A stretch of DNA of 64,000 nt from Aquilaria yunnanensis. Taxonomy: Eukaryota; Streptophyta; Magnoliopsida; Malvales; Thymelaeaceae. A program made the position numbers and the translations under genes. This document shows positions 4,755 to 59,584 of the stretch, one piece after another. The DNA lies in assembly GCA_039654915.1 (NCBI GenBank), contig CM077594.1:92766893-92830892 (forward strand), read 5' to 3'. The notes beneath the pieces are model-generated. The model did not search any database, was not told where the DNA came from, and saw only the letters and a list, made by a program, of their open reading frames with translations. The stretch's first letter is position 1; each line of letters begins with the position of its first letter.

Positions 4755-5260
4755 TCAAATCACAATTGAAGTCGGGTGCATGCAAGGTATTTCTAATAAT
4801 GAGATTATTGGAAAGAAAACATGTACCGGACCTTTCACACTTTTATAGGTTCCGTCAGGAAAACATATGTCTCGGCTAGGTATGGCCTTAAAGTTTTGGA
4901 GTTGGCTCGTGCTAGAGGTGATGTGGTTGGTGGCTCCAATGTCTAAAATCCAAGGTTTATGGTTTAGTTTCTTACCAGTGAAATTGACTGCACCTTGTCC
5001 TTTGTCCTTACCCAAAAGCTTCAGGAGTTCCTCATATTGCTCAACAGTCAAGTTGATGAATGGTGAAGGAGCTGAGTCTTCAAGTATGCATTCTTGCCTT
5101 TCGCCCCCTTCTCCACATGCGTTGGCATTTGCCTTGTTCCTTGTTCCTTTTCCTTTTGGCTCCAAATTCTTTGGGTAGCCTTTTATCTCCCAACAGTCTT
5201 ATTTGATATGTCCCAATTTATTGCAATGTCGGCATCTAGGCACGGGCTGATCATCACGGC
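4755..5260 (-). pseudogene. Copia zinc knuckle and aspartic protease domain
   Basis: A CCHC zinc knuckle begins near 5245-5200 (CRHCNKLGHIK, a stop, then DC). It is followed by a charged linker and the Copia aspartic protease motif WILDIGATNHIT near 4980-4940, whose active-site aspartate is in DIGAT (consensus D-S/T-G-A). The stop inside the knuckle would end gag early. Confidence 0.8.
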
Positions 5261-5333
5261 CTTGTGGCTTACTTTTTGTCTGTGCCACAAAGTTTCTAGG
5301 CGAGTCTAGTTCTGCCTATTGTGTGATGCTAAG

Positions 5334-17659: not shown

Positions 17660-18055
17660 CCTGATGGATCATCCGGATATGGAATTTAATATCCAAGCCA
17701 TGGATTCTAACCGAATCATTTAGACATGGATATGATCCGTCTTAGGATCTCGTTATTTAATTTTATTTTTAATAATTAATATTTTTAGCTAATATCCAAG
17801 CCATGGATTCTAACCGAATCATTTGGACATGGATATGATCCGTCTTAGGATTTCGTTATTTAATTTTATTTTATTTTTAATAATCTTAGCTAATATCCAA
17901 GCCATGGATTCTAACCGAATCATTTGGACATGGATATAGACGTCCTTAAAATTTCGTTATTTAATTTTATTTTATTTTTAATAATCTTAGTTAATATCCA
18001 AGCCATGGATTCTAACCGAATCATCTGGACATGGATATGATCCGTCTTAGGACAG
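17660..18055. repeat. About four tandem ~100-bp units inside the solo LTR
   Basis: The core AAGCCATGGATTCTAACCGA recurs near 17696, 17799, 17897 and 18000, each followed by a CATTTGGACATGGATAT-like block and mostly by GATCCGTCTTAGGA. Earlier shorter blocks (CATGGACTCTGCCGAGTCA) near 17473 and 17520 are shared with the big element's LTRs. Confidence 0.85.
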
Positions 18056-19901: not shown

Positions 19902-20057
19902 TCAGCGGTGCGGTAGACGGTAAAGGGGAACGGCGAAGAGGACGGCCTTCTTGCCGTCGACAATGAAGTGAACGGAGATTTCCTTCAGTTGATCAGACTC
20001 GTCGAAGTAGGCGAGGGTTCCATCGGGAAGAAAGTCATCAACAGCTATTGGAGCCAT
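19902..20057 (-). pseudogene. Captured 5' fragment of a type II peroxiredoxin (PRXIIB-like) gene
   Basis: A 51-codon ORF begins at ATG 20057-20055. Its first ~44 residues match the start of plant cytosolic type II peroxiredoxins ([20 protein letters not shown], then [17 protein letters not shown]). The alignment stops just before the segment that should hold the catalytic PGAFTPTC site, and the frame ends at a TGA. The intact enzyme reduces peroxides with thioredoxin or glutaredoxin. Here only the N-terminal piece is present, with a CT-rich leader upstream (20060-20345) that may have come from the same gene. It lies inside an LTR in the element's sense direction, so it was captured by a retrotransposon. 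It cannot be catalytic. Confidence 0.75.
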
Positions 20058-20718
20058 GGACGATTGGGTAAAAACGAGGATCGGGAAATCTGATCCGAAG
20101 AGTTGAATTCACCCTCAGAGGGAGAGGGCTACAGAGAGCTTTTGAAGAACGAGGAGAGAGCCCGAGCTCGGCCGAGAGAGAGAGAGGGAGAGCGTGAATG
20201 AGGAAAATGACGCCGGCAGGGGCAGGAGGGAGGCGACGCAGAGAGAGAAGGAGGGAGGCGACGCCGGCAGAGGCAGGAGGGAAGAGAGCAGAGAAATGAA
20301 AGAGAGAAGCGGGGAGAGAGAGGGAGGAGAAGAGAGAGATCCCAAGAGCGTGAGAGAGAAACAGAGAGGGAGCCCGAGCTTAATAGAAAAGAAAAGAAGA
20401 ACGGAGAAGGCTCCAGAGAGCCTCGAAGCCTCTGGAGATGAGATTATCTATTATTATTATTACTATTTTTTTTAATTAATTATTAAATTTTAATTTTAAT
20501 TTAACACACACAAACAGATATATTATTATATTTTATTCATTTTTTATTTTTATTTTTTTTTTTTTTTTTAACTTATAAAAATAAGAATGCCCCCTCCTAA
20601 ACTAACTGTTATCAATATATAATATTATTTTTTTAATTTAATTGATTAATTTTTTTTAATTAATTAATATTATATTTTTTTTAATGACAGTCGGACGAAA
20701 TTGGGTGTCAACAGTATG

Positions 20719-38743: not shown

Positions 38744-39228
38744 GTTAAACATTATTACCACTAGGTACACTGCACCCTGAATTTTTAAGGTATACCCCAT
38801 AGTATACCGTGCCGCATATTGTTACCGTTTTCATAAAAAAATAAATGTTAAAATATTATTTTAAGATGACATAATTTGTTTAATAATTTATTTTTACACA
38901 TTTTATATGTATTTTAATTTTTATCATTATAATTTATCAAATATAAATAAAATATATATGATAAAGATATTCAATTGGGGTAGCATCCACTAGAAATCCA
39001 ATAGGGGATATTGTTCAAAACCATAGAGACTTTTAAGCTACTACCATACATTAAATGTTTATATTAATTAAGAAAAGTAACAAAAAAATAAAAGTAAATG
39101 TTCATTTTATGATATGTGTATTATTTATATTTTAATATTTTATATATTTATGATATTTTTTATGTAAAATGAAAAAAATAGCTTTAAAAAATAAAATATT
39201 ACAGTACATGCCACACGACATTTGTGGT
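38744..39228. mobile_element. GGTATACC-rich MITE, copy 2, left part (split by Gypsy insertion)
   Basis: Inverted relative to copy 1 at 22380-23009 and clearly similar along its length (for example TTAAGATGACATAATTTG and GTGGGGTAGCAT-like segments). It stops at the GTGGT duplication of the Gypsy element and resumes at 56009-56158. Confidence 0.7.
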
Positions 39229-41922
39229 TGTGGCAACGTGCGGGTTTTCTGGAGTCGCCACCAATCTGTTTCACCTAGGTCGATTGGTCACCTTAAAATT
39301 GGTCTGCGAGAATTCGGGGATTCGGGAGTACGGTTACGTTAAAACAACTTTGTTAAAACGCCCAAAAATTGGTACCTTAGTTGATTTCAATTTTGTTTTG
39401 CTTTGTTTTAAAAAATATTCAGTTAATTTTCAAACTAAAAATTTTAACTGAATTAATCGGATGTGGATTTTTAAATTAATACCGGTTTAAAAATCTTTAG
39501 TAATTAATTTGTATAAAAATTTGATATTTTCGAACCATGGACTCTGCCGAGTCACCCGGACACGGAAGTTTTAATTCCGAACCATGGACTCTGCCGAGTT
39601 ACCCGGACACGGAATTTGATGAAATTTTAAATAATTTAATCCATATCGTAAAATATGAATTTTTATCTTTATATTTATTTTTATTCAATTTAAAAAAAAT
39701 TGATATTTTTCCAAACCGTGGATCCTGCGAGATCATCCGGATATAGAAATTAAATTTTTAATTAATTGTTTATTTAATGAATTTTAGTCATAATTTTTAT
39801 TGGATTTTATTATTATTTTATTATTTTTCTTGAATTTTTAATTATTATTACTTTAAAAATATATTTAAAAAAACAGAATTGATTTTTTGTTGTATCTTTA
39901 GAATTATTCAATTATGATTTTTTAATAATTTTAATAAAAGGTTAATTTTTTTAAAGAAATAAAAATTGATGTTTCAAAATAATGAAGATTTGAAATAATG
40001 AAGGATGGGGATTTTTGTTTGAAAAAGATTTTTTTGATAGCCTTAAAAATGAAGAAAGTTAATTATTCACATAAAAACTTCTTTTTTTTTCATTTATAAT
40101 TAGTTATTATTTACTTATTTATTTTATTTATTATTAAATAAGTGAAATAAATTTTATCATGAAGTAAAATTTTGGCATAAAGGAAAATTAAATAAAGTAA
40201 AGTAAAGGGGAGGTTTTTTTTTAGTTTAGACATAAAAAAAATGCATAAAATAACACATGTAAACATATAAATGAATATTAAAAGATAATAAATAAATAAA
40301 TAAAGTGGGGCTTTTTGACCATCCACTTAAAAAATAAATAAATATGAGGTATAACCTTCCATGAATTATAAAAGTTAGCAAGAGTTAGTAAAGTTAGATG
40401 TTAATATTAATGACAATAATAATAAAAGTTAGTAATGTTAGTTGAGTTAATTGTTAACAATAATAACAACAATAATAATAAAAGTTAGTAAAGTTAGTAA
40501 GTTAGTAAGTTAATAATGATAATAACAATAATAAAAGGTTAGTAAAGTTAGTAAGTTAGTAACAATAATAATAATAAAAGGTTAGTAAAGTTAGTAAGTT
40601 AATAACAATAATAACAATAAAAAAAAGGTTAGTAAGGTTAGTAAGTTAGTGAGTTAATAACAATTATAACAATAATAAAAGTTTAGTAAGGTTAGTAATT
40701 TAGTAAGTTAATAACAACAGTAATAAAAGTTAATAATGATAATAATAATAAACAAGTAAAATATAAAAGGAAAGTTAGTAATTAATTCTCTGCAAGAATA
40801 AAATAAAAGGTTAGTGACTCAACAGAAATAAATTGAAAAGATGAAGGGCGAAAGCTGAATTTTACCTAGGAACTAAAATTTCTAATTCTCCAGGAAACGC
40901 GGACGCGACGGACGCGCGCGAGGGAGGAGGCGGCTGGCAGCCAGGCAAGCGGCGGCGAGGGCGCGGAGGGGCAACGGCTGCACGCGACGGCAGGGGCGAC
41001 GGCGGCGCGGGACGGCAGGGGCGGCGAGATCAACGGCGGCGGCAAAGGCAGGAAACGCGGAGCGGACGTGAGAGCGACGGCGACGGCGGGGGAAGCGACG
41101 GCGACGGCGACGGCGTGGGGGCGACGGCGACGGCGCGGGGGGGGGGGGGGGGGGGGGGGCGAGCAACGGAGATGAAGGGACGGCGGGATAACGGCGAGAA
41201 ACGGCGGCAATAAACAAAAAAACGGAATCGAAAGGGGGGTGAAAACAAGCAGAGAAAAAAAACTTTTGGTTTTTCTGGAAAGAAAAAGAAGAGGCTGAGG
41301 GGCTAAGCTTTAATTTTTTCTTTTTTTAAAACGGAGCTCTAAGCTTGATTTATTTTTTTTCTATATTTTTTTCCTGTGTTAACACACAGATTTGGACCCC
41401 TATTTATAGGGAAGGGGTGCTGGACTGTTCATAATTAAAAATTAATTAAATTCAAACTTATCTTTTAATTTGCTAAATTGACAGTTTCAGTCCTTTACGT
41501 CTCTCAGACTCTGGATAAGTTCCTGAAGCTTCCGATTTTGACAATTTTGTCGTTTTCTGTTAATTGGGGCCAGAACAGTTATGCTGGCCCCAAATTGATG
41601 TGACAAACTACCAAATGCTCCTGGAACTTTCAAATTTTGTCAATTCTTCCCGAAACTTCTCAATTTTGTCATTTTTACCTCAAACTTTTTAATTTTGTCA
41701 TTTTTATGGAGTTTTCTTTTTTCTTTCAAACATACACATATACACACATATATCAAATCTTCACAAAACAAAACAAAAAAAATGTATTTTAAACTAATTA
41801 AAAAATTTTAGTAATAATAATAATAATAGTAATAATAATAATTTTTTTTTAATTAATTTTTTAATTAATTTAATTTTTTTTTTAAATTTTTTTTAATGGC
41901 CGGACGAAATTGGGTGTCAACA
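39229..41922 (-). repeat. Gypsy 3' LTR (left copy)
   Basis: 2694 bp, TGTGGCAACGTGCGG ... GGGTGTCAACA. It includes an AT-rich block, a long run of AGTTAGTAA/AATAATAA repeats (40370-40790), a GC-rich patch with a G-homopolymer (40890-41250) and a TATA box. Differences from the right copy cluster in the first ~550 bp and in repeat-length changes. Confidence 0.95.
41401..41408 (-). promoter_or_regulatory. LTR TATA box (3' LTR copy)
   Basis: The minus strand reads TATAAATA inside CCTATAAATAGGGG, about 515 bp from the LTR's upstream edge. Transcription would start about 30 bp further along, giving a short U3 and a very long (about 2.1 kb) R-U5. The counterpart is at 55483-55490. Confidence 0.6.
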
Positions 41923-41940
41923 GCTGCCCCCCTTTGCATG
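41923..41940 (-). other. Gypsy polypurine tract
   Basis: Next to the 3' LTR the sense strand reads GCAAAGGGGGGCAGC, the expected plus-strand primer. Confidence 0.8.
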
Positions 41941-41989
41941 CTTCATGGGACATGATGCAAGCAAAGTCGTTACCAAATTTCGTCCGACT

Positions 41990-43400
41990 TAGCTAGGCAT
42001 TGAGAACCTTCTCACCGCCTAAATCATGAGGTTAAGGAATCTTCCTTGGAACCTCTACGATAAAAACTTTCTTATTGTTGAAGAAAAACTGATGATTGAT
42101 TGTTTGAAGTTTAAGGAACTCTCCTTAGAACCTCGACGATAGGAACTCTCCTATCGTTGAAAGTTTGAGGTTAAGGGCCCTACCTTAGAACCTCTGCGAT
42201 AAGAACTCTCTTATCGTTTAAGAAAAATTGATGATTGATTGTTTGAGGTTTAAGGAACTCTCCTTAGAACCTCGACGATAGGAACTCTTCTATCATTGAA
42301 AGTTTGAGGTTAAGGGCCCTACCTTAGAACCTCTGCGATAAGAACTCTCTTATCGTTTAAAGAAAAATTGATGATTGATTGTTTGAGGTTTAAGGAACTC
42401 TTCTTAGAACCTCGACGATAGGAACTCTCCTATCATTGAAAGTTTGAGGTTAAGGGCCCTACCTTAGAACCTCTGCGATAAGAACTCTCTTATCGTCTAA
42501 GAAAAAATGATGATTGATTGTTTGAGGTTTAAGGAACTCTCCTTAGAACCTCGACGATAGGAACTCTTCTATCGTTGAAAGTTTGAGGTTAAGGGCCCTA
42601 CCTTAAAACCTCTGCGATAAGAACTCTCTTATCGTTTAAACAAAAATTGATGATTGATTGTTTTAGGTTTAAGGAACTCTCCTTAGAACCTTGACGATAA
42701 GAACTCTTCTATCGTTGAAAGTTTGAGGTTAAGGGCCCTACCTTAGAACCTCTGCGATAAGAACTCTCTTATCGTTTAAGAAAAATTGATGATTGATTGT
42801 TTGAGGTTTAAGGAACTCTCCTTAGAACCTCGACGATAGGAACTCTTCTATCGTTGAAAGTTTGAGGTTAAGGGCCCTACTTTAGAACCTCTGCGATAAG
42901 AACTCTCTTATCGTTTAAAGAAAAATTGATGATTGATTGTTTGAGGTTTAAGGAACTCTCCTTAGAACCTCGACGATAGGAACTCTCCTATCATTGAAAG
43001 TTTGAGGTTAAGGGCCCTACCTTAGAACCTCTGCGATAAGAACTCTCTTATCGTTTAAGAAAAATTGATGATTGATTGTTTGAGGTTTAAGGAACTCTCC
43101 TTAGAACCTCGACGATAGGAACTCTGCTATCGTTGAAAGTTTGAGGTTAAGGGCTCTACCTTAGAACCTCTGCGATAAGAACTCTCTTATCGTTTAAAGA
43201 AAAATTGATGATTGATTGTTTGAGGTTTAAGGAACTCTCCTTAGAACCTCGACGATAGGAACTCTCCTATCATTGAAAGTTTGAGGTTAAGGGCCCTACC
43301 TTAGAACCTCTGCGATAAGAACTTTCTTATCGTTTAAGAAAAATTGATGATTTTCGAGGCAAAAGTTCCATCCTTAAAACCCCGATGATGAAAATTGATT
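41990..43400. repeat. Tandem array, ~140-bp unit with dimeric order, hairpin-rich
   Basis: The marker GATGATTGAT recurs at 42091, 42230, 42370, 42509, 42649, 42788, 42928, 43067, 43207 and 43346. Spacing alternates 139, 140, 139, 140, so the true unit is a 279-bp dimer. Each monomer contains four short palindromes: AAGGAACTCTCCTT, GATAGGAACTCTCCTATC, TTAAGGGCCCTACCTTA and GATAAGAACTCTCTTATC. Decayed edges extend to about 41990 and 43400. It sits in the 3' untranslated region of the Gypsy element, where Tat/Ogre elements are known to carry variable tandem repeats. Confidence 0.95.
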
Positions 43401-43944
43401 TTGAGGCTAAGGAGCTTTCCTTAGGACCTCGAGCGAAATTTATATGAAAGCAATTGAAATTGGAATAATTTTCTTCGAAAGTGTGAATTTTCATAATAGG
43501 CGAGTGCAAAGAATTAGGCTTCGATAAAACGAGTGAATCTTGATGATGACAATAACACTGACAAATTATGTAAAGGGAATGGATGTTTGGAATCAATATC
43601 CAAGGTTCATTTAATATTTCCTTCAGTAAATATAGATTCGCTTGAGAGATATGTCATCCAAATAAGGTTGAAGTTTAACTACCCCAAAATGTTATGCCTA
43701 GTAGACCTAATAGGATGCGTCTCAAGAGTAATAAAAATTACTCTTTACTCAGCCATTCCAACCTAAAGGCATTGTCCCATGGTTTTAATATCAGTATGAA
43801 CGAAATTATCTTATAAGATAAAGAAATTTCCTGAAAAAAAAACTGAAACACGAAAGAAAATGCTGATAATAAAACTAAAGGACAAGAAAAACGATCGGAT
43901 CGCTTCTTCTTCCACAATACTTCAACAGGGTGAGTAGAGGACAA

Positions 43945-44574
43945 TTATGGGATCAAACTGGTCGGGAAAGATTGTCGTGTCCAGTCTACCTGAATCATTG
44001 CTGGATCTGGTTCAGGAACAAAAGCTTGCAATTTATCTAGCAATTCTTCAGCAGTTGTTGCGGATATTATGATTTATCGTGCTACTCTTGATATGAAATT
44101 CTTCTGCATAGCATAATCCACAAAAGCTATCAGACCTGTAAAGAAATTGTTAACATTCAACAGCCCAATGGGTTTCTTATGCAAATTAAGTTGGGCCATG
44201 GAAGCAATTTGAAAGACTTCTCCCAATGTGCCAAAACCACCTGGTAGAGCGATAAAAGCATCAGCATTTAAAAGCATTTGTAACACACACTCTTGCAAAT
44301 TTTTAACCACTAATTCTTTTCCAATCGTGCCCCCAGAAACAAATTTCAAAGGTCCAGGGATGATGCCCAAAACTTGACTTCCTCCTAAAGATGCTGCTGA
44401 TGCTACACCTCCCATTAATCCAACACTACCTCCTCCATAAACTAAATGTATTTTTCGCTCAGCTAATACTCTACCCAAATGGTTGGCTGCCTTTAAATAT
44501 TCTTCATCTTTTCCAAGAAAAGCCCCAGAAAATACACAAATACTTCGGGATTTACGAGTTGGGGTTTTCTCCAT
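43945..44574 (-). pseudogene. Captured LOG-like gene (cytokinin riboside 5'-monophosphate phosphoribohydrolase family)
   Basis: Starting at Met 44574 (an upstream in-frame Met at 44649 lacks homology), the minus strand encodes a LOG-type Rossmann protein: SICVFSGAFLGKD, VYGGGSVGLMGG, ADAFIALPGGFGTLGEVFQI and PIGLLNVNNFF. The family motif PGGxGTxxE is intact. The preceding segment, where LOG enzymes have the conserved M-H-x-R, reads NLQECVLQM, so the catalytic Arg seems lost. A TAA at 44074-44076 stops the ORF after 166 residues from Met 44574. Homology continues in the same frame (ISATTAEELLDKLQ ... VPEPDP) to a natural stop at 43945-43947. Plant LOG genes have several introns; this copy has none, which suggests capture from spliced RNA. 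LOG enzymes release active cytokinin from nucleotides. Probably inactive here, though a truncated product is possible. Confidence 0.85.
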
Positions 44575-44689
44575 TCCTATCCTCACCCTTGTGAGAGAAG
44601 GAGAAAAGAGGATATATTTATAGAGATGAAGAGATAATTTTATTTTCAAGAATGGATATATTATTGTCGGAAAAGGATAAAATTTTCAA

Positions 44690-45150
44690 AAGTGACAGTT
44701 ATACATATTAATCGTGACTATGACTCATGTCAGGAATGGGTACATTATCGTCAAAAGAGGAGAAAAATTTTAAAAGCAACTAGCATACACAGTAGTCACT
44801 ACTGTAACTTACGTCGGGAGTAGGCACGTGATTGTCGGATGAGAAGGAAAATTTCAAAAGTGGCAACTATATGCAGTAGTCATAACTGTACCTCATGTCA
44901 GGAGTGGGTACATTATTGGGAGGATAATTTCAAAAGAGACAACTAGCATGTACAGTAATCGTGACTTTGCTCCACGTCAGGAATAGGTACATTATTCTTG
45001 GAATAGAAGGAAAATTTTCAAAAACGACAACTAGCCTGTACAGTAGTCGTGACTGTGGATCACGTCAGGAGCAGGTACATCATTTGTCAGAAGAGAAGGA
45101 AAAATTTTGAAAAGTGACAACTAGCCTGTACAGTAGTCATGACCGTAGTT
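44690..45150. repeat. About six tandem ~85-bp units between LOG and zinc-finger ORFs
   Basis: Diverged copies of a unit with GTACAGTAGTCGTGAC, CACGTCAGGAGTGGGTACAT and GAGAAGGAAAATTTC-like blocks. Units begin near 44700, 44790, 44865, 44940, 45025 and 45110. Non-coding. Confidence 0.8.
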
Positions 45151-45195
45151 CACGTTTTCTACTGGTTTTACGTCCAGGGACGGCTTCAATGCCTT

Positions 45196-45744
45196 TTACG
45201 AATCGGGGATTTGCTTCCCATCCAGTTTTCTCACAAACTGGCAAACAGGGTCATTAAAAGTCAGATTTCCAAGACTGTAACGATCCTGTTCTTTACGGAA
45301 AGTCCACCATAAATCCATAATTTTCCATTGCACTATTTCACAAGAATGTGTTTCAAAAGTTAATAGGATATCATCCAAAGATTCCTTACGTAGGCCATTC
45401 TTGATGAATTTTCTTTTATCTTCACGATTTCTGGTGATCATCCCTAAAGAACGACATTTAGTATCGCAATTCCATCGTCCACATTTATGACAGACACCTA
45501 GCCTCTTTGCTCTTCGCTTTTTAGAATAACGGCTTTTACCTAAACCGGGCATGCGGGGCATAAATGCATCTGGAACTTCACCCGCCAAACAGACCTTAGC
45601 TTCAATTATCCACTGCACATTATCGGGAATGCCTTTGCGTGTAAAAACTCTGATTCTTTCACATCTAGCAAGGTAAATCTTTTTAAGGACTTTTATTGGA
45701 AGGGAAGGAAAGTATTTTCGCAGTGCAGAAAGAGTAGAATCGAT
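45196..45744 (-). pseudogene. Virus-like Cys-rich nucleic-acid-binding ORF, copy B (start codon lost)
   Basis: 183 codons, open from 45744 to the stop at 45196-45198. The first codon is ATC where copy A has ATG; the next Met is at 45618. The middle holds GKSRYSKKRRAKRLG, then CHKCGRWNCDTKC, then FIKNGL. This order (Gly-Ser-Tyr plus basic run, a C-x2-C-x4-C-x3-C cluster, then FI-x2-G) resembles the small zinc-finger proteins of carlaviruses, which bind nucleic acid and affect symptoms and silencing. Residues after the finger are charged with no known domain. It lies in sense orientation inside the Gypsy element, 838 bp downstream of copy A. The viral link is motif resemblance only; an unrelated plant zinc-finger protein is possible. 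Confidence 0.5.
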
Positions 45745-46033
45745 TGATGAGAGAAGAATTTGAGAGGAGAGGGAAATGAATCAGTTATTGTAGGAGACTG
45801 GAATAACCGACTTTAGAAGTCACGGGGTATCTTATCCGCTGCTTAATCAGAAGGAAGAACACGCATTTATAGTGATGAAAAGGGATAACGTGTCGATTAC
45901 ACTTAGGGGAGCATGAACATCTGTCAAAAGAAAATGCAAACTTTTCCAAATATAACAAACTGTATATACAGTAATTGTGATTGTGGCTCACATCTTCCAC
46001 TGGCTTTACGTCTAGTAACGGCATTAACGGCTT

Positions 46034-46582
46034 CTATGAGTCGAGGATTTGCTTCCCATCCAGTTTTCTTACAAGCTGGCAAACAGGATCGATTACAGTC
46101 AGATTCCCGGGACTGTAACGGTCTCGTTCTTTATGGTAAGTCAACCATAAGTCGATAATTTCACCTTGCACTCCTCCACAAGAATGCGTTTCAAGAGTCT
46201 CTCGGATATCCTCCAGAGATTCTTTACGCAAGCCATTCTTAATGAATCGTATTTTATCTTCTCGATTATCAGAGATCATCCCTAAAGAACGACATTTAGT
46301 ATTACAAGTCCACCGTCCACATTTATGGCAGACTTGTAACCTTTTCGCTTTTCACTTTTTGGCATAAGAGCTTTTGCCTATACCAGACATGTGGGACACA
46401 AATGCCTCTGGGATTTCACCTGCCAGACGAACCTTGGCTTCGATTAACCACTGCACATCTTCAGGGATTCCTTTATGTATCAGAACTCTTAATCGTTCAC
46501 AGCGAACTTGGTAGATCTTTTTGAGAATGTTCATTGGGAGAGAAGGAAAATATTTTTGTAAGACAGAAAGAGTAGGATCCAT
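46034..46582 (-). pseudogene. Virus-like Cys-rich nucleic-acid-binding ORF, copy A (one in-frame stop)
   Basis: Exactly 183 codons, as in copy B, with ATG at 46582-46580. One TGA at codon 77 (46352-46354) replaces an Arg codon in the basic run just before the zinc cluster. The reading frame then continues through CHKCGRWTCNTKC and FIKNGLRKESL to the stop at 46034-46036. The N-terminal ~70 residues (LQKYFPSLPMNILKKIY and so on) look helical. The copies share flanks as well (AATCAGTTATT ... CTTATCCGC-like leader), so the whole ~838-bp block was duplicated in tandem. With the stop, only a 76-residue peptide lacking the zinc cluster is predicted, unless readthrough occurs. Confidence 0.5.
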
Positions 46583-46599
46583 TTTCTAGAGGGAAGTAA

Positions 46600-49490
46600 A
46601 AGAAAGAAGATAGGAAAGAATCAGTTATTATGGGCAATTGAGAGAACCGACTTGAGAGTCACGGAGTACCGTATCCGCCGCTTAACCGGAAAAGTGGATC
46701 CTACTTTATTTTGATGTGATAGATATTTTTTTATCTTGGATATTCCATCGAGCTGACGTCGATCCAGTCCTCCATTATTGAATCCATTGTCCGCTTTTGA
46801 CAAATTTTCAACGACAATATTTCTTGATGTCTGCCTTATCTTTGACCACAGCTATCTCTTATCTTGAATGCTGCTAAGCTGGCATCAATCCTGTCCTTCC
46901 AGGTGTAGCCTCGATTATTGAATCAATTGCCAAGCTTTTGACAATATTGTCTACTTTATCTTTGAATTGCTGATGAGGCTGGGTACAGTATATCAGCTGT
47001 GCATCTAGTGATAGATTGGTAAGAGCTGATGTTATTGAGATCTCAGCTTATACTGCTGTAACGGTGCGGTGGATGTGTTTCCCATTTGATTCCTATCATG
47101 TAAAAGTCATGCATGCATGATGTGAAATGCATGAATGCAAAACATGTGTAATTGATGGTTCTTTTTTATTTTAATTTTTATTTTTATTTTATTTTTTTAT
47201 TTTTTTTTGGATTGATCTAGTTCTTCATATCTTTGCTTTACTGGATCCTCTTTATAATTGCCTTCTTGGACTATCATTGAATCTCTTTATGCTTTTCAGC
47301 TTTTGTTCACTGCCTCAAAAGCCCAACTCTTTTCAAAATCCCCTTTCTTTGACTTGTTCTTAAATTTTGGCCTCAATTTCTTTAAAGTTGGCCCGCCTCA
47401 TAATTTATATCTCTTTCGGGTACTCATCCATTGTCATGGATTTGATACCATCAAAGGCTTTACTTTCAATGTCTGCTTTGCCCCTTTTCTTGTGACCGTG
47501 CCGACACTTACTTATCCCCATGTTATAATCTGAATGATTGCTCTTCCTTGAACTCATGTTTTGATCCATAAGACTTGCCCCCTTATCTATTGAACTTCTT
47601 TGTTGGCAGTACTCCTCTTACGCTTCGTAGAGACTACTTTGCCCCCCTGAATATGGTATTTATGTGGATAAAAGATATCATCTCGCCTTTGATTTAACAG
47701 AAGGTCGCTAGACCTTTGTGATGGCACTTGATCGTAAATTTCTCTTACAAAAACCACATCTTATTAAAGAAAGACTCAAGCTATCTCCTCACTTTTAAGT
47801 CTACATACATTAATGAATAATGGTTTGGCCTTAAAGAAAAACTTTCATCAATTTGCAAAGCTTGACAAAGTAATTTACGGTCTTTTTTTTTAATTAAAAT
47901 ATCCTGCCATTCTTCCCTTTCCAACTCGAAGACATAAACTGTGCAAGGCAATAAGGTAGAAACATGATTCACAATAATAGCCTTTTAACTGAATGAGGAT
48001 GATATCGAGAGGTAAATGTTAGGTGTGAGGAAAGTTAAGTTTGAATGTTTTTTTTTTGTTGCAGTCTTTTAGCTGAATGAGAATGATATTAAGAGGTAAA
48101 TATTAGGTCTGAGTAAAGTTAAGTTTGAGTGGTGTGAAAGAAGGGTCTTTTAATACTACTCGTGAGCAGTATTAAATAAGGTAGAAACATGATTCACAAT
48201 GATAGTCTTTTAACTGAATGAGGATGTTTGGTCTAAGGAAAGTTAAGTTTAAGTGGTGTGGAAGAAGGGTCTTTTAATACTACTCGTGAGCAAATTTGAT
48301 TATGGTGAAAAATTCAATAGTGATGACCTCAAACTTGCCACTATTTCCAGGAATTTAGACCTCAACTGTTGCCCCCCAACTATCGTGGTCTTTGTGTACG
48401 CTTGGTTTGAGGGTCGCTCTTGTCTTCTAAACCGCCTTTGCAGGTTTTCAGTCTAGAATCCATAGCTCACTTTTTCTTTGTTTTCTTTCTTTTGCTCTAA
48501 CTTGAGGCCTTTTTTTTTTGTTTTTTTTTATTTCCCTTTTTTTTTTTTGTGTGAGCTATGGTGATAACATACTTGATAACTCTCTTGAAGTGAGATGACT
48601 CAAGTGGCCTTACTTGCTCGTGCTTGTTCTCAGTCCTTTTTGGTTTTGAATTTTCCCTTGTTGCCTTTTGATGGAAGGGATGAACTTCTCTTTCTTTTTG
48701 GAGTTTGTGTTGCAGAGAACCAAGATTATAGCCCTCTTGAAGTGAGATGACTCAAGTGGCTTTACTTGCTCGTGCTTGCTCTCAGTCTCTTTTTGTTTTG
48801 GATTTTGAATTTTCCCTTGTTGTCTTTTGATAGAAGGGAGGAACTTCTTTCCTTTTTTTTTTTTGAGAATTTGTGTTGCGTTAAACTGAGAACTTTTTTT
48901 TTTTTTAGCATTTGTGAGAATTGGGAGGCCACTGAAATCATTTAATATAAGAGCTACCTTCTTTGGAAGCTAACCCAAGACTTCTTGCAAGGATGTTGAT
49001 AACCACTGTGAATTCTTTTTTTTTAGTTGAGGTGCAACATTTGAAATCATTCTCTTGAAGATCACTACTATCAAATATTTCTTAACTTTCATTTTCACCC
49101 ACGAGTAGTATTGTTTACAAAGTAAAGTGTGATGGTAATAATGGATAGTGTAATGGCAATGAATGAGAGATAGATGTGAGAAAATGAAATTTTTGGTAGA
49201 AAGTGGTAGAATATGTGGATGTAAAAATGGAATTTTTGGTAAAAAGTGGTAGAATGCACACATTACATCTTTTTGTTGTACCAGAAAAAGAATACCAGGT
49301 GTCCATCTAACAAAGACTACACCCTAGATTCTGGACTAAATCTAAGAGATTTTTACTATTACTTTGGCAAGCTATCAAAGATGCAAGTTTAGTAAAAGGA
49401 TTCCCTGTCATTCAAAAGTGTGTGCGAACTGTTAGGTCAGATCTGACTTGGAGTCATTCCAAAATCAATGTAATTCTAGCTCGAAATCTT
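46600..49490. other. Gypsy internal non-coding region where pol would be expected
   Basis: About 2.9 kb without RT, RNase H or integrase motifs on either strand. It contains diverged tandem copies of a ~130-180-bp segment (core GATAGTCTTTTAACTGAATG) at about 47945-48300. A ~150-bp block (CTTGAAGTGAGATGACTCAA ... TCTCAGTC) is duplicated at about 48584 and 48735, with several poly-T runs. The 63-aa ORF at 47781-47972 (-) matches no family I know. Confidence 0.6.
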
Positions 49491-49640
49491 CACTTCCAAT
49501 TAGCAATCACATTTTGGCCTAGGAACTTGGACTCGATCAACTGCTGGACCTTGAGTTTCAATGCCACACAATTTTCAGTTAGATCCGCGATTGACCCTTT
49601 TTTGGTAATCACATTTGGCATTTGGGTCACACCAACTTGG
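49490..49640 (-). pseudogene. Stray gag zinc-finger fragment downstream of protease
   Basis: Just after the protease ORF the minus strand again encodes a piece like WCDPNAKCDY ... ENCVALKLKVQQLIESKF in broken frames. This matches the gag C-terminal finger (WYDPNITCPYHDGAVGHG ... VQQLIESKWL near 51100-51000). It is a second, partial copy placed where pol should begin. Confidence 0.7.
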
Positions 49641-49649
49641 AAGAGAAGG

Positions 49650-50915
49650 TCAGTTGGTCTTTGCTATCGTTGATATGGATGATAGCAGAATGTCTTTTTC
49701 AGCAAAGACTGTGATTAACTTTCCTTCAAAAATGAATTTCATTTTTTGGTGTAATGGGGAGGGAATTGCTCCAGCCATATGAATCCATGGTCTGCCCAAC
49801 AGACAAGTATAAGAAGGATTAATGTCCATAACTTGGAATGTGATATGGAAGACACAAGGGCCGATCCCTATTGGCAGCTCTATTTCTCCAACAACATTTC
49901 TATTCATCCCGTCAAATACTTGAATAGTGATATGACTGTTGTTGAGGTATGATGAGTCTATACCAAACTTGTGTAAGGTTTCAAGTGGCATTATGTTTAG
50001 AGCTGACCCATTATCAACAAGAACTCTAGCCATAATTCGATCTTTGTATTTAACCGAAATATGTAGAGCCTTAGAGTGGCCCCTTCCTTCTGCTGGTATC
50101 TCATCGTCAGTCAATATGATGAGATTCTGTGCGGTGATGTTGTTGACGAGGTGATCAAAACTATTCACTGAAATATCTGGCTCAACATAGGCCTTATTCA
50201 AGACTTTGAGGAGGGCTTCTCGATGAGCATCAGAGCTTATGAGTAGTGAAAGTATAGAGATCTTTGTTGGCAGGCGGTTCAACTGCTCAACGATGTTGTA
50301 TTCACTTTGCTTTATGAGTTTGAGAAACTCAGTAGCTTGCTCATCTGTTACTGCTCGAGGCATCTCTTGCTCTTTGGATGTATTTGTATCAAGAGGTCCA
50401 CTTGTTAGGTCTGTAACGTTCTTATCTTGTTGGAGCTTGTTCATTTGCTCCGGAGAATAACACCGACCACTTCTAGTTATACTCCCAACTTCTAACGGAG
50501 TTGATGTGATGTTAGAAATGTAATCATAGCTCCATGAAACAGTTTTGTCTGATTTGTATGGGAATGACCTTGGGACTTGAATTCTTAAAGGCTTAAGAAC
50601 AGGTTTTGAAATTGGTATGACTAGTGGTCTTGGGATAGCCTTGACTTCTTATTCTTTAATGATCACCTTCACATTATCATCTTTATCTGACATAAAAATG
50701 ATGAGTTCGGAGGAGTCTATGAGTCTTTGTAGACTTTCACGGAATTCTAGGCATTCTTGGATAGAATGACTCTTACTGTCATGAAAGTTGCACCACTCCT
50801 CGTCTTCAACTTCTTCGTTTCCAAAAGAAGACTTTCCCATGATAATCCCTTCTTTTACAAGGCATGAATATACATGCTTGAGAGGGGTTATGATATCATT
50901 GACTGACTTCTTCAT
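49650..50915 (-). pseudogene. Gypsy gag C-terminus and aspartic protease (Tat/Ogre type)
   Basis: Continues gag in a different frame from 50915. A finger-like CNFHDSKSHSIQEC sits near 50800, and one in-frame TAA lies at about 50649-50651. Then comes a 264-aa run from Met 50444 to 49650. It holds the retroviral-type protease: KALHISVKYKDRIMARVLVD, NGSALNIMPL (active-site Asp in the VDNGS form) and TCLLGRPWIHMAGA, the latter being the characteristic ILGRPW block. The protease matures gag and cuts it from pol. The frameshift at the gag junction and the stop make normal expression doubtful. Confidence 0.85.
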
Positions 50916-52353
50916 CGGCCAGTGCTCTTTCTATCATATTGACTGGTTTTGCTTGATGAGGCGGCAATGGATTGTGAGTGACGTTTGGTTCATCGGAAAA
51001 GTCCAACCACTTAGACTCGATTAATTGTTGGACTATACGCTTCAATGCTATGCAATTTTCCAATCCGTGGCCCACGGCACCATCATGATATGGGCAAGTT
51101 ATGTTGGGGTCATACCACCTTGGATATGGGGGTTTAAATGGATTTGTAGGAATTGGATGGATAAGTTGACTTTCAATGAGTTTTGGATATAACTCAGTGT
51201 AAGTCATAGGAATTGGCGCAAAAACTTCTCTCGGCCTTTGTGGAGAAGTCGGAACAGGTGGCCGTAACTGATTAGGCCTGTTGAGAGGATAATTGTTGGG
51301 CTTATTGGTAGAATAATCATTGGGCCTATTGGTAGAGTAGGATCGGCGAGGCCCGGTAGCAACAGTACCCACGAGGGGAATCCCTCTTCCTCGTCCTATT
51401 TGTTGTATTTCTTCATCTTTTCTTCTGGATGGTCCTCCTCTTTTCATTGGATCACTAAAGGACTCAGTAATCTTCCCGATCCTAATCCCATACTCGATCC
51501 TTTCTCCAGACATGACTACGTCAGTGAAATTGGTTGTCGAATTGCCAATGAGTTTGTCATAATATGGGTACTTCAACGTCTGAACAAATAAAGTGACCAT
51601 TTCTCTTTCTGTCATAGGTGGCTGAACTTGTGCAGCTGAATCCTTCCACCGTTGGGCATATTCCTTGAAAGTTTCTTGCTTTTTCTTCTCCATGTTTTGG
51701 AGAGTTTGACGATCCGGAGCCAAGTCCATAACATGTTTATAATTGCCGATGAAGGCCTGAGCAAGGTCATTCCAAGTTTTGATGTTTCTTGGACCTTGAC
51801 TTAGATACCACTGGAATGCTGATTTTGTGAGGCTTTCCTGAAAAAGTGCAATCCACACCTTTTCATCTTTTGTGAGTGGTTGTAGTCTTCTTAGAAACAA
51901 TGTGATGTGAGTGATAGGATCACTCGTTCCATCGTATTTCATGAAATCTGGCACCTTAAAGTCTAAAGGAATTATGACATCTGGTACCAAGCATAGGTCA
52001 TCCACTGAGAGAGATCCAAATATAGTGCCTCCTTCAATGGCTCGCAGTCTCTTCTCTATTGTTTCGAGCTTTTGAGATTCTGCTTCTTCTTTTAGTAATA
52101 TATTCTTCTCTTCATGTACAGTGTCTTGTTTCAGATGAACGTTAGCGGACGGTCCTGATTCTTGAACCAGGTTTTCTTGAACTGAAACTCGTTGTGGGGT
52201 GAATCCCGGAGGATAAGTGGGATCTTGTGCTTCTTTGATGGGAACTTGAGTTGCTTTCCCTTTGATTATTTCCATCAATTGTCTCATTTGTTCTGCCATA
52301 CTTTCAATTTTGGACTCCATCTCCATGAGACGTCCTTCGGCTTGTTCTGCCAT
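50896..52353 (-). CDS. Gypsy gag polyprotein (Tat/Ogre type)
   Basis: A 485-aa open frame from Met 52353. The N-terminus is a coiled-coil-like stretch (MAEQAEGRLMEMESKIESMA). From about residue 120 comes the retrotransposon gag domain: VPDVIIPLDFKVPDFMKYDG, then FQESLTKSAFQWYL, then PDRQTLQNMEKKKQETFKEY and AAQVQPPMTEREMV. A Pro/Asn-rich linker follows, then a CPYH ... GHGLENC finger near residue 440. This layout is typical of the Tat/Ogre lineage. Gag forms the particle that packages element RNA. It is the only long intact frame in the element, so this copy may still make gag for trans-mobilisation. It ends 20 nt after the next frame opens. Confidence 0.93.
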   Translation of the reverse strand: MAEQAEGRLMEMESKIESMAEQMRQLMEIIKGKATQVPIKEAQDPTYPPGFTPQRVSVQENLVQESGPSANVHLKQDTVHEEKNILLKEEAESQKLETIEKRLRAIEGGTIFGSLSVDDLCLVPDVIIPLDFKVPDFMKYDGTSDPITHITLFLRRLQPLTKDEKVWIALFQESLTKSAFQWYLSQGPRNIKTWNDLAQAFIGNYKHVMDLAPDRQTLQNMEKKKQETFKEYAQRWKDSAAQVQPPMTEREMVTLFVQTLKYPYYDKLIGNSTTNFTDVVMSGERIEYGIRIGKITESFSDPMKRGGPSRRKDEEIQQIGRGRGIPLVGTVATGPRRSYSTNRPNDYSTNKPNNYPLNRPNQLRPPVPTSPQRPREVFAPIPMTYTELYPKLIESQLIHPIPTNPFKPPYPRWYDPNITCPYHDGAVGHGLENCIALKRIVQQLIESKWLDFSDEPNVTHNPLPPHQAKPVNMIERALADEEVSQ

Positions 52354-53300
52354 TAATCTTGTTTGGAGCCGAGTTGGATATCGGCGTTGAGGTCCAATTT
52401 TATCCCTTTTTAAAGTAAGATTTATTAGACTCTACATGTATGTGATTGATGCAATGAATGCATGCATGCAATGTGAGATTATGTTTTTATCAGACTTTGT
52501 ATGCACGTGATTGATGTAATGGATGTATGCAATGAGATTATGTTTTTATCAGACTTTATATGCACGTGATTAATGTAATGCATGCATGTGATGAGTGAGT
52601 TTGCTTATCCATTATCGTGGAACTTCAAAACTTTTAGTTGTTATTAGAAAGACCAAAAAATTAGCATAGTTTGATGCGTGGTTTTGATGCATGAAGAATA
52701 ATTGCACAAGAAAGATAAGGTTATTAATAAGTTAAATAGCAATTAACAACTCATGAAGTATTATGGATAAACAAGTTAAAACCATACGAAGAAAAGTGTA
52801 GAGTAAAAACACAGCATAACAAGGATATGCTTATGGCGTTGGTAAAATGGTAGAAATTCTATGGTCAGTTCTATGGTTAAGTGGGGAGTTTTATATGCAT
52901 AGGGTGGTCTATCAAAAGGCCGAAGGATAGTTCCCGAATCCCATCACTAAATTATAGTGACAGCCCAATTCCTTACCTTCTAGGGTTTATGTAAGGAAAG
53001 GATTAATTCGAGTCGTAGCTTTTCGTGGGCCCATGCAGAGACTAACCGTCTCAGGAGGCAATACACTACTTTGCTACTTTGAAACCGGTGAAGGCTTGGA
53101 GACCATGGCCTCTCAAGGACATCAACACCAATTCCGCTTAGAAAGAACGTGTTCGCTTTGAAGAAGCTCGGGTATAGAGCTTCATATTGTGAATGCATTA
53201 TGCATGTTTATCTAAGTAAATATAATATATAAATCCACATATAATAAGCAAAGTAAATCAAAATAAATCAACTTCTAGGCTCGACTCACTAACGTCACTT
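52354..53300 (-). other. Gypsy 5' leader
   Basis: About 950 bp between primer-binding site and gag start. It contains diverged repeats of TGCACGTGATTGATGTAATG near 52440-52590 and no coding region. Confidence 0.6.
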
Positions 53301-53317
53301 CCCCAGTGGAGTCGCCA
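53301..53317 (-). other. Gypsy primer-binding site
   Basis: Three bases inside the 5' LTR the sense strand reads TGGCGACTCCACTGGGG, beginning with the TGG that pairs with a tRNA CCA end. Ogre-type elements commonly use a tRNA-Arg site; I did not verify the tRNA. Confidence 0.75.
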
Positions 53318-53320
53318 AGC

Positions 53321-56003
53321 TGTGGCAACGTGCGGGTTTTCTGGAGTTGCCACCAATCTGTTTCACCTAGGTCGATTGGTCACCTTAAAATTGGTCTGCG
53401 AGAGTTCGGGGATTCGGGAGTACAGTTACGTTAAAACAACTTTGTTAAAACGCCCAAAAATTGGTACCTTAGTTGATTTCAATTTTGTTTTGCTTTGCTT
53501 TAAAAAATATTCAGTTAATTTTCAAACTAGAAATTTTAACTGAATTAATCGGATGTGGATTTTTAAATTAATACCAGTTTAAAAATCTTTAGTAATTAAT
53601 TTGTATAAAAATTTGATATTTCCGAACCATGGACTCTGCCGAGTCACCCGGACACGAAAGTTTTAATTCCGAACCATGGACTCTGCCGAGTCACCCGGAC
53701 ACGGAATTTGATGAAATTTTAAATAATTTAATCCATATCGTAAAATATGAATTTTTATCTTTATATTTATTTTTATTCAATTTAAAAAAAATTGATATTT
53801 TTCCAAACCGTGGATCCTGCCGGATCATCCGGATATGGAAATTAAATTTTTAATTAATTGTTTATTTAATGAATTTTAGTCATAATTTTTATTGGATATT
53901 ATTATTATTTTATTATTTTTCTTGAATTTTTAATTATTATTACTTTAAAAATATATTTAAAAAAACAGAATTGATTTTTTGTTGTATCTTTAGAATTATT
54001 CAATTATGATTTTTTAATAATTTTAATAAAAGGTTAATTTTTTTAAAGAAATAAAAATTGATGTTTCAAAATAATGAAGATTTGAAATAATGAAGGATGG
54101 GGATTTTTGTTTGAAAAAGATTTTTTTGATAGCCTTAAAAATGAAGAAAGTTAATTATTCACATAAAAACTTCTTTTTTTTTCATTTATAATTAGTTATT
54201 ATTTACTTATTTATTTTATTTATTATTAAATAAGTGAAATAAATTTTATCATGAAGTAAAATTTTGGCATAAAGGAAAATTAAATAAAGTAAAGTAAAGG
54301 GGAGGTTTTTTTTTATTTTAGACATAAAAAAAATGCATAAAATAACACATGTAAACATATAAATGAATATTAAAAGATAATAAATAAATAAATAAAGTGG
54401 GGCTTTTTGACCATCCACTTAAAAAATAAATAAATATGAGGTATAACCTTCCATGAATTATAAAAGTTAGCAAAAGTTAGTAAAGTTAGATGTTAATATT
54501 AATGACAATAATAATAAAAGTTAGTAATGTTAGTTGAGTTAATTGTTAACAATAATAACAACAATAATAATAAAAGTTAGTAAAGTTAGTAAGTTAATAA
54601 TGATAATAACAATAATAAAAGGTTAGTAAAGTTAGTAAGTTAGTAACAATAATAATAATAAAAGGTTAGTAAAGTTAGTAAGTTAATAACAATAATAACA
54701 ATAAAAAAAAGGTTAGTAAGGTTAGTAAGTTAGTGAGTTAATAACAATTATAACAATAATAAAAGGTTAGTAAGGTTAGTAAGTTAGTAAGTTAATAACA
54801 ACAGTAATAAAAGTTAATAATGATAATAATAATAAACAAGTAAAATATAAAAGGAAAGTTAGTAATTAATTCTCTGCAAGAATAAAATAAAAGGTTAGTG
54901 ACTCAATAGAAATAAATTGAAAAGATGAAGGGAGAAAGCTGAATTTTACCTAGGAACTAAAATTTCTAATTCTCCAGGAAACGCGGACGCGACGGACGCG
55001 CGCGAGGGAAGAGGCGGCTGGCGGCCAAGCGAGCAGCGGCGAGGGCGCGGAGGGGCGACGGCTGCATGCGACGGCAGGGGCGACGGCGGCGCGGGACGGC
55101 AGGGGCGGTGAGATCAACGGCAGCGGCAAAGGCAGGAAACGCGGAGCGGACGTGAGAGCGACGGCGACGGCGACGGCGACGGCGGGGGAAGCGACGGCGA
55201 CGGCGTGGGGGCGATAGCGACGGCGGGGGGGGGGGGGGGGGGGAGCAACGGAGACGAAGGGACGGCGGGATAACGGCGAGAAACGGCGGCAATAAACAAA
55301 AAAACGGAATCGAAAGGGGGGTGAAAACAAGCAGAGAAAAAAAACTTTTGGTTTTTCTGGAAAGAAAAAGAAGAGGCTGAGGGGCTAAGCTTTAATTTTT
55401 TCTTTTTTTAAAACGGAGCTCTAAGCTTGATTTATTTTTTTTCTATATTTTTTTCCTGTGTTAACACACAGATTTGGACCCCTATTTATAGGGGAAGGGG
55501 TGCTGGACTATTCATAATTAAAAATTAATTAAATTCAAACTTATCTTTTAATTTGGTAAAATGACAGTTTCAGTCCTTTACGTCTCTCAGACTCTGGATA
55601 AGTTCCTGAAGCTTCCAATTTTGACAATTTTGTCGTTTTCTGTTAATTGGGGCCAGAACGGTTATGCTGGCCCCAAATTGATGTGACAAACTATCAAATG
55701 CTCCTGGAACTTTCAGATTTTGTCAATTCTTCCCGAAACTTCTCAATTTTGTCATTTTTACCTCAAACTTTTTAATTTTGTCATTTTTATGGAGTTTTCT
55801 TTTTTCTTTCAAACATACACATATACACACATATATCAAATCTTCACAAAACAAAACAAAAAAAATGTATTTTAAACTAATTAAAAAATTTTAGTAATAA
55901 TAATAATAATAGTAATAATAATAATTTTTTTTTAATTAATTTTTTAATTAATTTAATTTTTTTTTTAATTTTTTTAATGGCCGGACGAAATTGGGTGTCA
56001 ACA
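53321..56003 (-). repeat. Gypsy 5' LTR (right copy)
   Basis: 2683 bp, TGTGGCAACGTGCGG ... GGGTGTCAACA, with TATAAATA on the minus strand at 55483-55490. The GC-rich ORFs at 54950-55330 (-) arise from GGCGAC-type repeats and a G-homopolymer and are not genes. Confidence 0.95.
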
Positions 56004-56008
56004 GTGGT

Positions 56009-58318: not shown

Positions 58319-59584
58319 ATGCAGCCCCCGCCGCCTCCTCCACCTCCTTCTAGCCCCGCCGCCCTCCTCGGTAAGTACCAGCTTGGCCGACTCCTCGGCA
58401 GGGGAAGCTTTGCCAAGGTTCATCAGGCCAAGTCTCTCATCGATGGCTCCACCGTCGCGATTAAAATCATTGACAAGGCCAAGATGGATCCGGAGATGGA
58501 GCCAAGGATTATCCGGGAGGTCGCCGCCATGCGCCGTCTGCAATACCACCCGAATGTTCTCAAAATCCACGAAGTTTTGGCGTCCAAGACCAAGATCTAT
58601 CTCGTCATGGAGCTTGCCGCCGGCGGTGAGCTCTTTGGCAAGGTTCTCCGCCACGGGCGTCTCACCGAGCCCGCCGCCCGCCGCTACTTCTCCCAGCTCG
58701 TTTACGCCCTCCGATTCTGCCACCAAAACGGCGTCGCCCATCGGGATGTCAAACCCCAAAACCTCCTGCTCGATCAGAACGGTAACCTCAAGGTTTCCGA
58801 TTTTGGCCTCTCCGCCCTACCGGAACAGCTTAAGAATGGGCTTCTTCACACGGCCTGCGGTACGCCGGCGTATGCCGCGCCAGAGGTTGCCAGGCGTAAA
58901 GGCTACGATGGAGCCAAAGCCGACGCCTGGTCTTGCGGCGTCATATTATTTGTGCTGCTTGCTGGTTACTTACCTTTTGAGGATAGCAATCTAGTCACCA
59001 TGTACAAGAAAATCCATCGACGAGATTACCAATTCCCTTCATGGGTCTCGAAACACGCCAAATCGGTCATATACCAACTCCTCGACCCGAACCCGGAAAC
59101 GAGATCGAGCATCGAAAGATTAATGGAGACGTCGTGGTTCAAGAGATCGTTACCCGTTAAGATGAAGCAGCAAGAAAGCGTAGCCTTTGATTTGATACTG
59201 AAGCAGGAAATTGGATGTTGCAGCGGGGTAAATGCCTTCGACATAATCTCTTTTTCATCAGGGCTGAATTTGTCGGGACTTTTTGAAGGCGGGAGGAAGG
59301 AGAAGAGGTACACTTCAATGGCGCCGTTTGAAGGGGTGTTGGAGAAAGTGAAGGAGGTGGGGGAGAGGTTGGGGTACAGAGTGGAGAGAGGGAAGGCTGG
59401 AATAGTGGGCTTGGGGAAAGGGAGAGTAGTGGTGATGGTGGAGGTGGTGGAGATCGCGGCTGCGTTCTTGCTGGTGCAGGTGAAAGTGGTCCAGGGGGAG
59501 GCGGAGTTTGAGGAGGGACATTGGAGGGATTTGGAGGCAGGCCTCGGCGATGTCGTCGTAACATTGCAGAATGGCGGCGATTGA
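58319..59584 (+). CDS. CIPK7: CBL-interacting protein kinase (SnRK3), CIPK7/CIPK4-like
   Basis: An intronless 421-aa Ser/Thr kinase. A Pro-rich N-terminus precedes the kinase domain (about residues 19-275): glycine loop GRGSFAKV, Lys49 in [12 protein letters not shown] with Asp143, DFG at 161-163, then the SnRK3 activation loop through [10 protein letters not shown]. The regulatory half has the NAF motif at 304-324 ([19 protein letters not shown]), which binds CBL calcium sensors and relieves autoinhibition, then a PP2C-interacting segment. CIPKs pass calcium signals to ion transporters under nutrient, salt and cold stress. Intronless organisation and loop sequence point to the CIPK4/CIPK7 branch; choosing between them needs a tree. 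All catalytic residues are present. The 5' half is GC-rich relative to its flanks, common in intronless plant genes. Confidence 0.95.

Follow-up and report, generated by a model that had tools for sequence, protein, structure and literature searches.

Introduction

Several systems described before come close to the element considered here, and they are given as far as the accessible parts of the cited sources go. A YgdH/LOG domain has been reported in gypsy consensus sequences of Citrus, and in those of Populus when no copy filter was applied (PMC9289625, which cites Steinbauerova 2011); LDLGAS has been given as the protease motif of Diaspora, an Athila relative (PMC1142308); and p12 of chrysanthemum virus B (CVB) has been reported both to activate transcription and to suppress silencing (PMC7588395). 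Here we analyse a stretch of 64,000 nucleotides of Aquilaria yunnanensis (contig CM077594.1, positions 92,766,893 to 92,830,892), called the window below. Its minus strand holds, at 39229–56003, a long terminal repeat (LTR) retrotransposon with a gag gene, two genes resembling those of viral nucleic-acid-binding proteins (NABPs) and one gene resembling LONELY GUY (LOG), the latter three called together the NABP-LOG cassette.

We consider it probable that the element is a broken copy of a pol-less family, that its cassette recurs genome-wide and also stands behind the integrase of an unrelated family, and that the cassette is kept for escape from host control. The LOG half of this finding is partly known already. 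The finding itself holds at the level of the family and reaches further than what the first-pass annotation, made from the letters of the window, had seen.

The cassette in the host genome

A search of the 842 Mb of the host gave 84 matches, grouped into 40 places (the 40 scored of 5094 candidates), and the cassette is present at at least these 40 places, the number being a lower bound. Twelve loci were read, namely the eight best full-length matches, with the window included, and four others. Eight of them have the layout NABP-NABP-LOG, three have three NABP genes followed by LOG, and one has three NABP genes without LOG in 4451 bases. The linkage of NABP with LOG is seen directly in the host DNA; moreover, contigs of the same size recur between the lists of NABP and LOG relatives, with four at 2000–13000 bases against 0.14 expected, and five shorter ones against about 2.2 expected, two of which are too short for both genes.

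Counting a copy as open when the start is present and there is neither a stop nor an indel over the aligned codons, NABP copy 1 is open in 7 of 12 loci, NABP copy 2 in 10 of 12 and LOG in 6 of 11. The ratio of nonsynonymous to synonymous substitution rates (dN/dS), calculated by Nei-Gojobori over all pairs of the loci read and pooled, is 0.202 for NABP copy 1 (n = 12; 65/66 pairs below 1), 0.366 for NABP copy 2 (n = 12; 65/66 pairs) and 0.281 for LOG (n = 11; 55/55 pairs). The corresponding values for the 3' part of gag and for the protease, each from four copies, are 0.269 (6/6 pairs below 1) and 0.532 (4/6 pairs), that is, the constraint on the cargo is similar to that on gag and stronger than that on the protease. 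The expectations of the first-pass annotation that other host copies share the cargo, keep its frames open and evolve under purifying selection are thus borne out.

It is also seen that the loci with three tandem NABP genes (L056–L059) have the NABP gene multiplied within the element.

The same cassette on a second backbone

The contig DAIEQH010000041.1 (3330 bp; L026 below), which is filed under a Nomurabacteria metagenome-assembled genome, encodes a gypsy integrase (rve 2.3e-16), and an NABP open reading frame (ORF) lies 204 bp after the integrase stop codon. A host search with the L026 integrase gave 91 scored matches, and the best four of these were fetched (L060–L063). In all four the NABP gene stands behind the integrase, its leader being 80–88% and its trailer 88–92% identical to those of L026, with the NABP DNA at about 76%, and in one of the four, L062, the integrase and NABP continue into LOG. 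Relative to the window, the NABP genes of L060–L063 are 81–83% identical and the LOG of L062 is 83% identical. The sequence after LOG is also common to the window and the second family, at 77–95% over short stretches and at 79% over 141 bp in L065. Upstream of the L062 integrase there is a different set of gag frames together with a protease that carries the LDLGAS motif (L064), and the gag and protease of the window have no match there. Because the cassette is common to both while the window gag and protease find nothing in L064, it can be concluded, judging by these alignments, that one cassette sits on two unrelated backbones.

As a separate observation, a plant-type integrase followed by NABP within a Nomurabacteria genome is read by us as plant DNA, likely a contamination of the assembly.

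At the protein level NABP copy 1 of the window shows 67% identity over 181 aa with its L026 counterpart, and the dN/dS values among copy 1, copy 2 and L026 are 0.234, 0.215 and 0.207, all bootstrap ranges falling within 0.12–0.36. The noncoding blocks around the gene in L026 (leader 1671–1740, trailer 2345–2410) have counterparts in L060–L063 and in the window. Compared with L026, both blocks of copy 1 exceed its coding sequence (74%) and both blocks of copy 2 slightly exceed theirs (71%; Table 1). Between copy 1 and copy 2 the leader (79%) and trailer (71%) are not above the coding sequence (79%), and outside the blocks the identity drops to 32–58%. We note that the flanking blocks are common to the two backbones and are more identical than the gene in most of the comparisons. 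No RNA structure is supported for leaders and trailers by folding (z from −1.24 to 0.52), an Rfam search gave no match, and in viral contigs the leader and trailer patterns were met at one place (L027) and at zero places, respectively.

A family without pol

Twenty 10-kb stretches upstream of host cassette copies were read, in sets of 7 and 13. The pol-free middle region of the window element is matched in all of them (Table 1), and in none of the 20 is there a match to the L026 integrase, the search having been for integrase, gag and protease and not separately for reverse transcriptase (RT). Because all 20 stretches are without an integrase match, the element family is pol-less, and this is a trait of the family. 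Since the host genome holds more insertions built in the same way, it is a multi-copy non-autonomous family. No autonomous partner with the LTRs of the window element came to light, the genome-wide searches being those with the cassette and with the L026 integrase. In the window element itself none of the 13 stop-free pieces of at least 50 aa between protease and NABP has a pol domain in profile search, the RT, RNase H and integrase of an autonomous gypsy element being absent. By tblastn, gag is full-length in 3 of the 20 upstream stretches, internally deleted in 7, diverged in 1 and missing or a remnant in 9.

Note also that within this one pol-less family gag thus passes from full length through internal deletion to absence (L036, L039 and L053 versus L037, L038 and L043), and that where gag is internally deleted, gag and protease lie in one open frame of 714–729 codons.

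The NABP-like and LOG-like proteins

NABP has 201 relatives at E ≤ 0.001 among 203 candidates, of which the best 120 were listed. Those among the listed relatives that are named are all from plants (Rhamnella, Populus, Xanthoceras, Orobanche and Parasponia), the length is 182 aa in 48/120, and conservation of the four finger cysteines amounts to 109, 113, 113 and 110 out of 114 aligned rows. In a tree that took in 83 of the 120, P0001 is the partner of the C-terminal piece of copy 1 (94/68), and P0002 that of copy 2 (100/98). The 140-aa part of copy 2 matches Carla_C4 (1.5e-6) and Viral_NABP (2.5e-6), both above the Pfam gathering cut-offs; the L026 protein is just under the cut-off of the former and above that of the latter, and the two stop-free pieces of copy 1 gave no NABP match in Pfam. 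As the LOG-like gene has a clear profile match too (Table 1), the attribution to viral NABP and LOG families by the first-pass annotation has passed the profile search. NABP relatives were found neither in viral contigs nor, by tblastn, in phage records. In a viral fold search with the NABP model, names are given for 14 of the top 16 rows, and 13 of these are called silencing suppressors or nucleic-acid/RNA-binding proteins; we take all 14 to be plant flexivirus proteins.

For LOG, 7943 of 8000 scored candidates are below E 0.001, and among the best 120, which were listed, many are from Reevesia (whose locus tags carry 18 different chromosome numbers), Paulownia and Populus. The tree has 104 rows and took in 101 of the 120 listed proteins, P0122 and those shorter than 190 aa being left out. 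In this tree, which is midpoint-rooted and has a bootstrap that is not fully settled, 100 rows including that of the window split from AtLOG3, AtLOG8, P0230 and P0175 with support 98/93. Using the numbering of CgLOG and the prenyl-pocket roles described for K100 and E125 (PMC4979012, accessible part), both residues are absent in 117 of the 120 listed proteins and in the window copy; the count was made without P0122, P0175 and P0230, in which K100 is present, and this is why the figure for K100 is 117/120. Among the 117, R99 is kept in 102, T119 in 117, E122 in 111 and W129 in 113. The window protein, which ends after 166 residues with the homology continuing in frame to about 43972, keeps the PGGxGTxxE motif, but R99 is replaced by Cys, E121 by Gly and W129 by Met. 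Judging from tree and alignment, the window LOG belongs to a clade that has lost the two prenyl-pocket residues, and the clade may have an altered specificity. The plain cytokinin release that the first-pass annotation had envisaged is not supported, because these residues are absent in 117/120 listed relatives. The model of the relative P0135 (predicted local distance difference test, pLDDT, 85.6) matches AtLOG3 at 7.4e-23, and LOG relatives on viral contigs have only 23–39% identity.

In addition, an LxLxL stretch is present near the C-terminus of 79/90 full-length element-type LOGs (P0121–P0240 family), the shuffle mean being 1.3; it is also present in the host-like P0175 and thus may be inherited. 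We presume a resemblance of this tail to the plant EAR motif.

Anatomy of the window copy and its surroundings

The features of the window copy are collected in Table 1. In the 5'-to-3' order they are gag, a C-terminal piece of gag, the protease-like region, about 3 kb without pol, NABP copies 1 and 2, the 88-bp repeats, LOG and the 139/279-bp array, with gag, both NABP-like genes and the LOG-like gene all on the minus strand, i.e., the cargo in sense with gag.

Table 1. Coordinates of the features of the retrotransposon in the window
Feature	Position	Strand	Basis and remarks
LTR retrotransposon	39229–56003	minus	16,775 bp; paired LTRs, target site duplication, primer-binding-site-like stretch, polypurine tract
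Target site duplication GTGGT, high-coordinate side	56004–56008	none	sequence reading
5' LTR, 2683 bp	53321–56003	minus	blastn against the other LTR; TATA-like site at 55490
Primer-binding-site-like stretch starting TGG	53300–53317	minus	three bases behind the 5' LTR
gag ORF, 485 aa	50896–52353	minus	PF03732 2.5e-10
gag C-terminal region, other frame, then stop	50652–50930	minus	17/120 listed gag relatives run into it
Aspartic protease-like region, VDNGSA motif	49653–50648	minus	PF13650 0.0053, below cut-off
Region without pol domains	46600–49650	minus	common to other host copies; blastn match in 20/20 upstream stretches
Noncoding leader, NABP copy 1	46619–46688	minus	81% to L026
NABP-like copy 1	46034–46582	minus	start codon present; codon 77 is a nonsense codon
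Noncoding trailer, NABP copy 1	45973–46034	minus	87% to L026
TATA-like site upstream of NABP copy 2 leader	45871	minus	sequence reading
Noncoding leader, NABP copy 2	45781–45850	minus	75% to L026
NABP-like copy 2	45196–45744	minus	frame open; start at family position missing
Noncoding trailer, NABP copy 2	45135–45196	minus	73% to L026
88-bp tandem repeats	44841–45155	minus	between NABP copy 2 and LOG
TATA-like site	44615–44622	minus	48 bp upstream of LOG start codon; sequence reading
LOG-like gene, intronless	43972–44574	minus	PF03641 3.6e-24; premature stop 44076–44074
139/279-bp tandem array	42027–43352	minus	between LOG and 3' LTR
Polypurine tract	41923–41935	minus	abuts the 3' LTR
3' LTR, 2694 bp	39229–41922	minus	blastn against the 5' LTR
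Target site duplication GTGGT, low-coordinate side	39224–39228	none	sequence reading

The structural ends claimed by the first-pass annotation are all there: paired LTRs, which are seen to end in TG...CA, a 5-bp target duplication, the primer-binding-site-like stretch and the polypurine tract. The LTR pair is 97.4% identical by blastn, with 45 substitutions in 2671 columns and a Kimura two-parameter distance of 0.017, calculated on LTR slices with one end displaced by a few bases, which with the substitution rates we assume gives an age of roughly 0.7–1.2 million years. The primer would presumably be tRNA-Arg, and Tat/Ogre is a putative lineage label for an element that is without RT.

The window copy is dead. 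The long gag without pol stands as annotated at first, except that the frame between gag and protease is shifted, and the arrangement of two virus-like ORFs and an intronless LOG in sense is real except that none of the three genes is intact, each being disrupted or without its start (Table 1), with the first in-frame ATG of NABP copy 2 at residue 62. The window gag has 204 relatives at E ≤ 0.001 among 7992 scored, the best 120 being listed. The relatives of gag and protease are plant gypsy elements, the motif VDNGSA of the window protease not being the LDLGAS of an Athila relative. The protease piece, matched by 15 of the 120 listed gag relatives, lies here behind a stop or in another frame. 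Because TATA-like sites precede the LOG start and NABP copy 2, separate promoters for these two genes are possible.

Behind the protease region, at 49520–49618 (minus), there is a second stretch of the gag Cys/His type, with 51% over 35 aa. Elsewhere in the window, what is probably a solo LTR from a related family lies at 17195–20713 (minus) with GTATG on both flanks, its 3' end being 86% identical to the 5' LTR of the element over about 530 bp. The host genes beside the element encode a protein kinase with a NAF domain (CIPK-like; 58319–59584, plus) and a pentatricopeptide-repeat protein (61154–63769, minus), and several ORFs at 2588–6017 (minus) look, by eye from the translations, like pieces of a copia-type retrotransposon.

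Discussion

We propose that the cassette is likely an accessory kit which helps elements to spread. In the proposed pathway, the RT and integrase would be supplied in trans by a pol-bearing element, and the cassette would be passed between backbones by template switching. The NABP protein may bind nucleic acid and dampen silencing or alter transcription, a suppressor-like role suggested by its analogy to CVB p12. The LOG-like enzyme would still cleave a nucleotide via a changed base pocket, and might act on something other than a classical cytokinin. A bolder version, which we put forward only tentatively and which may well claim too much, is that the two genes make up a transferable anti-defence cassette, composed of a zinc-finger silencing suppressor that was exchanged with betaflexiviruses in ancient times and a LOG-derived nucleotide hydrolase with an N6 pocket rebuilt to take a different modified nucleotide, which would carry its own flanking signals and jump between backbones, so that pol-less and even gag-less elements prosper.

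By contrast, the cassette could be hitch-hiking cargo that spread along with successful elements, with the constraint left over from a pol-bearing master element. The integrase-bearing family does have the cassette, and many pol-less copies are disrupted. However, the low dN/dS persists among the pol-less copies at a median dS of 0.13–0.23 (median dN/dS 0.18–0.36), and thus the constraint acted within the pol-less family; in addition, a third NABP gene is present in 4 of 12 loci, and the cassette is still found where gag has been lost or left as a remnant, in 9 of the 20 upstream stretches. We therefore regard hitch-hiking as unlikely. Considerably less probable still is an origin of the NABP genes as endogenous viral elements, i.e., integrated betaflexivirus pieces picked up recently by retrotransposons. 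For this speak the matches above the cut-offs of Carla_C4 and Viral_NABP and the viral fold rows described above, but the plant NABP family is longer and widespread, leader and trailer are common to two backbones. The genes are found between the LTRs in the window and behind the integrase in L026 and L060–L063 rather than in a betaflexivirus genome. That ordinary host NABP and LOG genes were captured repeatedly and independently is hardly credible, even though three relatives in which the LOG pocket residues are retained (P0122, P0175 and P0230) resemble host LOGs, because leader, NABP, LOG and post-LOG sequence have 77–95% DNA identity in the same order on both backbones, which argues for one cassette passed on. 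Nor is the single capture that had been considered at first supported, both genes being wide plant families and present in the integrase-bearing family of the same genome.

Several points weigh against the proposal of a selected accessory kit carried by a pol-less family. In L062, the one fetched locus where the second backbone extends into LOG, the LOG match is split in two. The predicted structure of NABP is of low quality (pLDDT 64), and none of its hits in the viral fold search reaches significance (best E 0.087, none below 0.001). The loci were selected by their match to the cassette, and hence elements that lost it are uncounted; the scope of the upstream search, given above, is to be read likewise. 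Copies that are disrupted or without a start amount to 5/12 for NABP copy 1, 2/12 for NABP copy 2 and 5/11 for LOG. One of the 66 pairs is above 1 in each NABP set (1.14 and 1.08), and the pairs are not independent. Since gag is about as constrained as LOG, the cargo does not stand out by its constraint, and only the protease, on four copies, is looser.

Two unrelated plant backbones keep, under selection, a gene of a viral silencing-suppressor family next to a modified hormone enzyme. With this, the role of accessory ORFs in plant LTR elements, a question of long standing, becomes testable by standard assays on two small proteins.

Comparison with known systems

The first-pass annotation was not aware of an element combining the two genes. 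The YgdH/LOG domain in gypsy elements is already published (PMC9289625), whereas for NABP, or for an NABP-LOG pair, in a retrotransposon we found no report in the literature searched, supplements not covered; in particular, the accessible parts of PMC7264820, PMC11963269, PMC1142308, PMC11728184, PMC2714080 and PMC11593424 give no NABP in a retrotransposon. The Citrus and Populus elements are alike in having a LOG-family domain in gypsy-type elements, there bearing RT, but in the accessible main text neither NABP nor the pair is mentioned, nor are tandem NABP genes or a carrier without pol, the supplementary chart on rarer domains lying outside this scope (PMC9289625). Retand and other Tat elements, as far as accessible text describes them (PMC11963269, PMC7264820), also have accessory ORFs between pol and the 3' LTR, with tandem repeats there, but the Retand ORFs are antisense, with TRP28, whereas here they are in sense and are NABP and LOG.

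At the protein level, the element NABP has in common with the betaflexivirus NABPs (Carla_C4, Viral_NABP, CVB p12) the basic stretch, the Cys-rich finger and the Pfam match, and differs in being encoded by an element, typically with 182 aa and with long conserved N- and C-terminal regions. With the LONELY GUY phosphoribohydrolases (AtLOG3, 2a33) the LOG-like family shares the fold, PGGxGTxxE and, in most members, the catalytic Arg and Glu, but K100 and E125 are replaced in 117 of the 120 listed proteins, and the window copy is truncated with Arg changed to Cys.

The window family resembles the pol-less gag-bearing non-autonomous LTR elements, which we take to be those named TR-GAG, in its LTRs, primer-binding site, polypurine tract, gag and lack of pol, and differs from them in that gag itself is lost or a remnant in 9/20 stretches and that a cargo of three or four genes lies downstream in the loci read. 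Finally, the integrase-bearing backbone is similar to Athila/Calypso, as described in the accessible part of PMC1142308, in having an accessory gene directly behind the integrase and an LDLGAS-type protease upstream (L064), but the gene in this position is NABP, followed in one locus by LOG, rather than an env-like gene.

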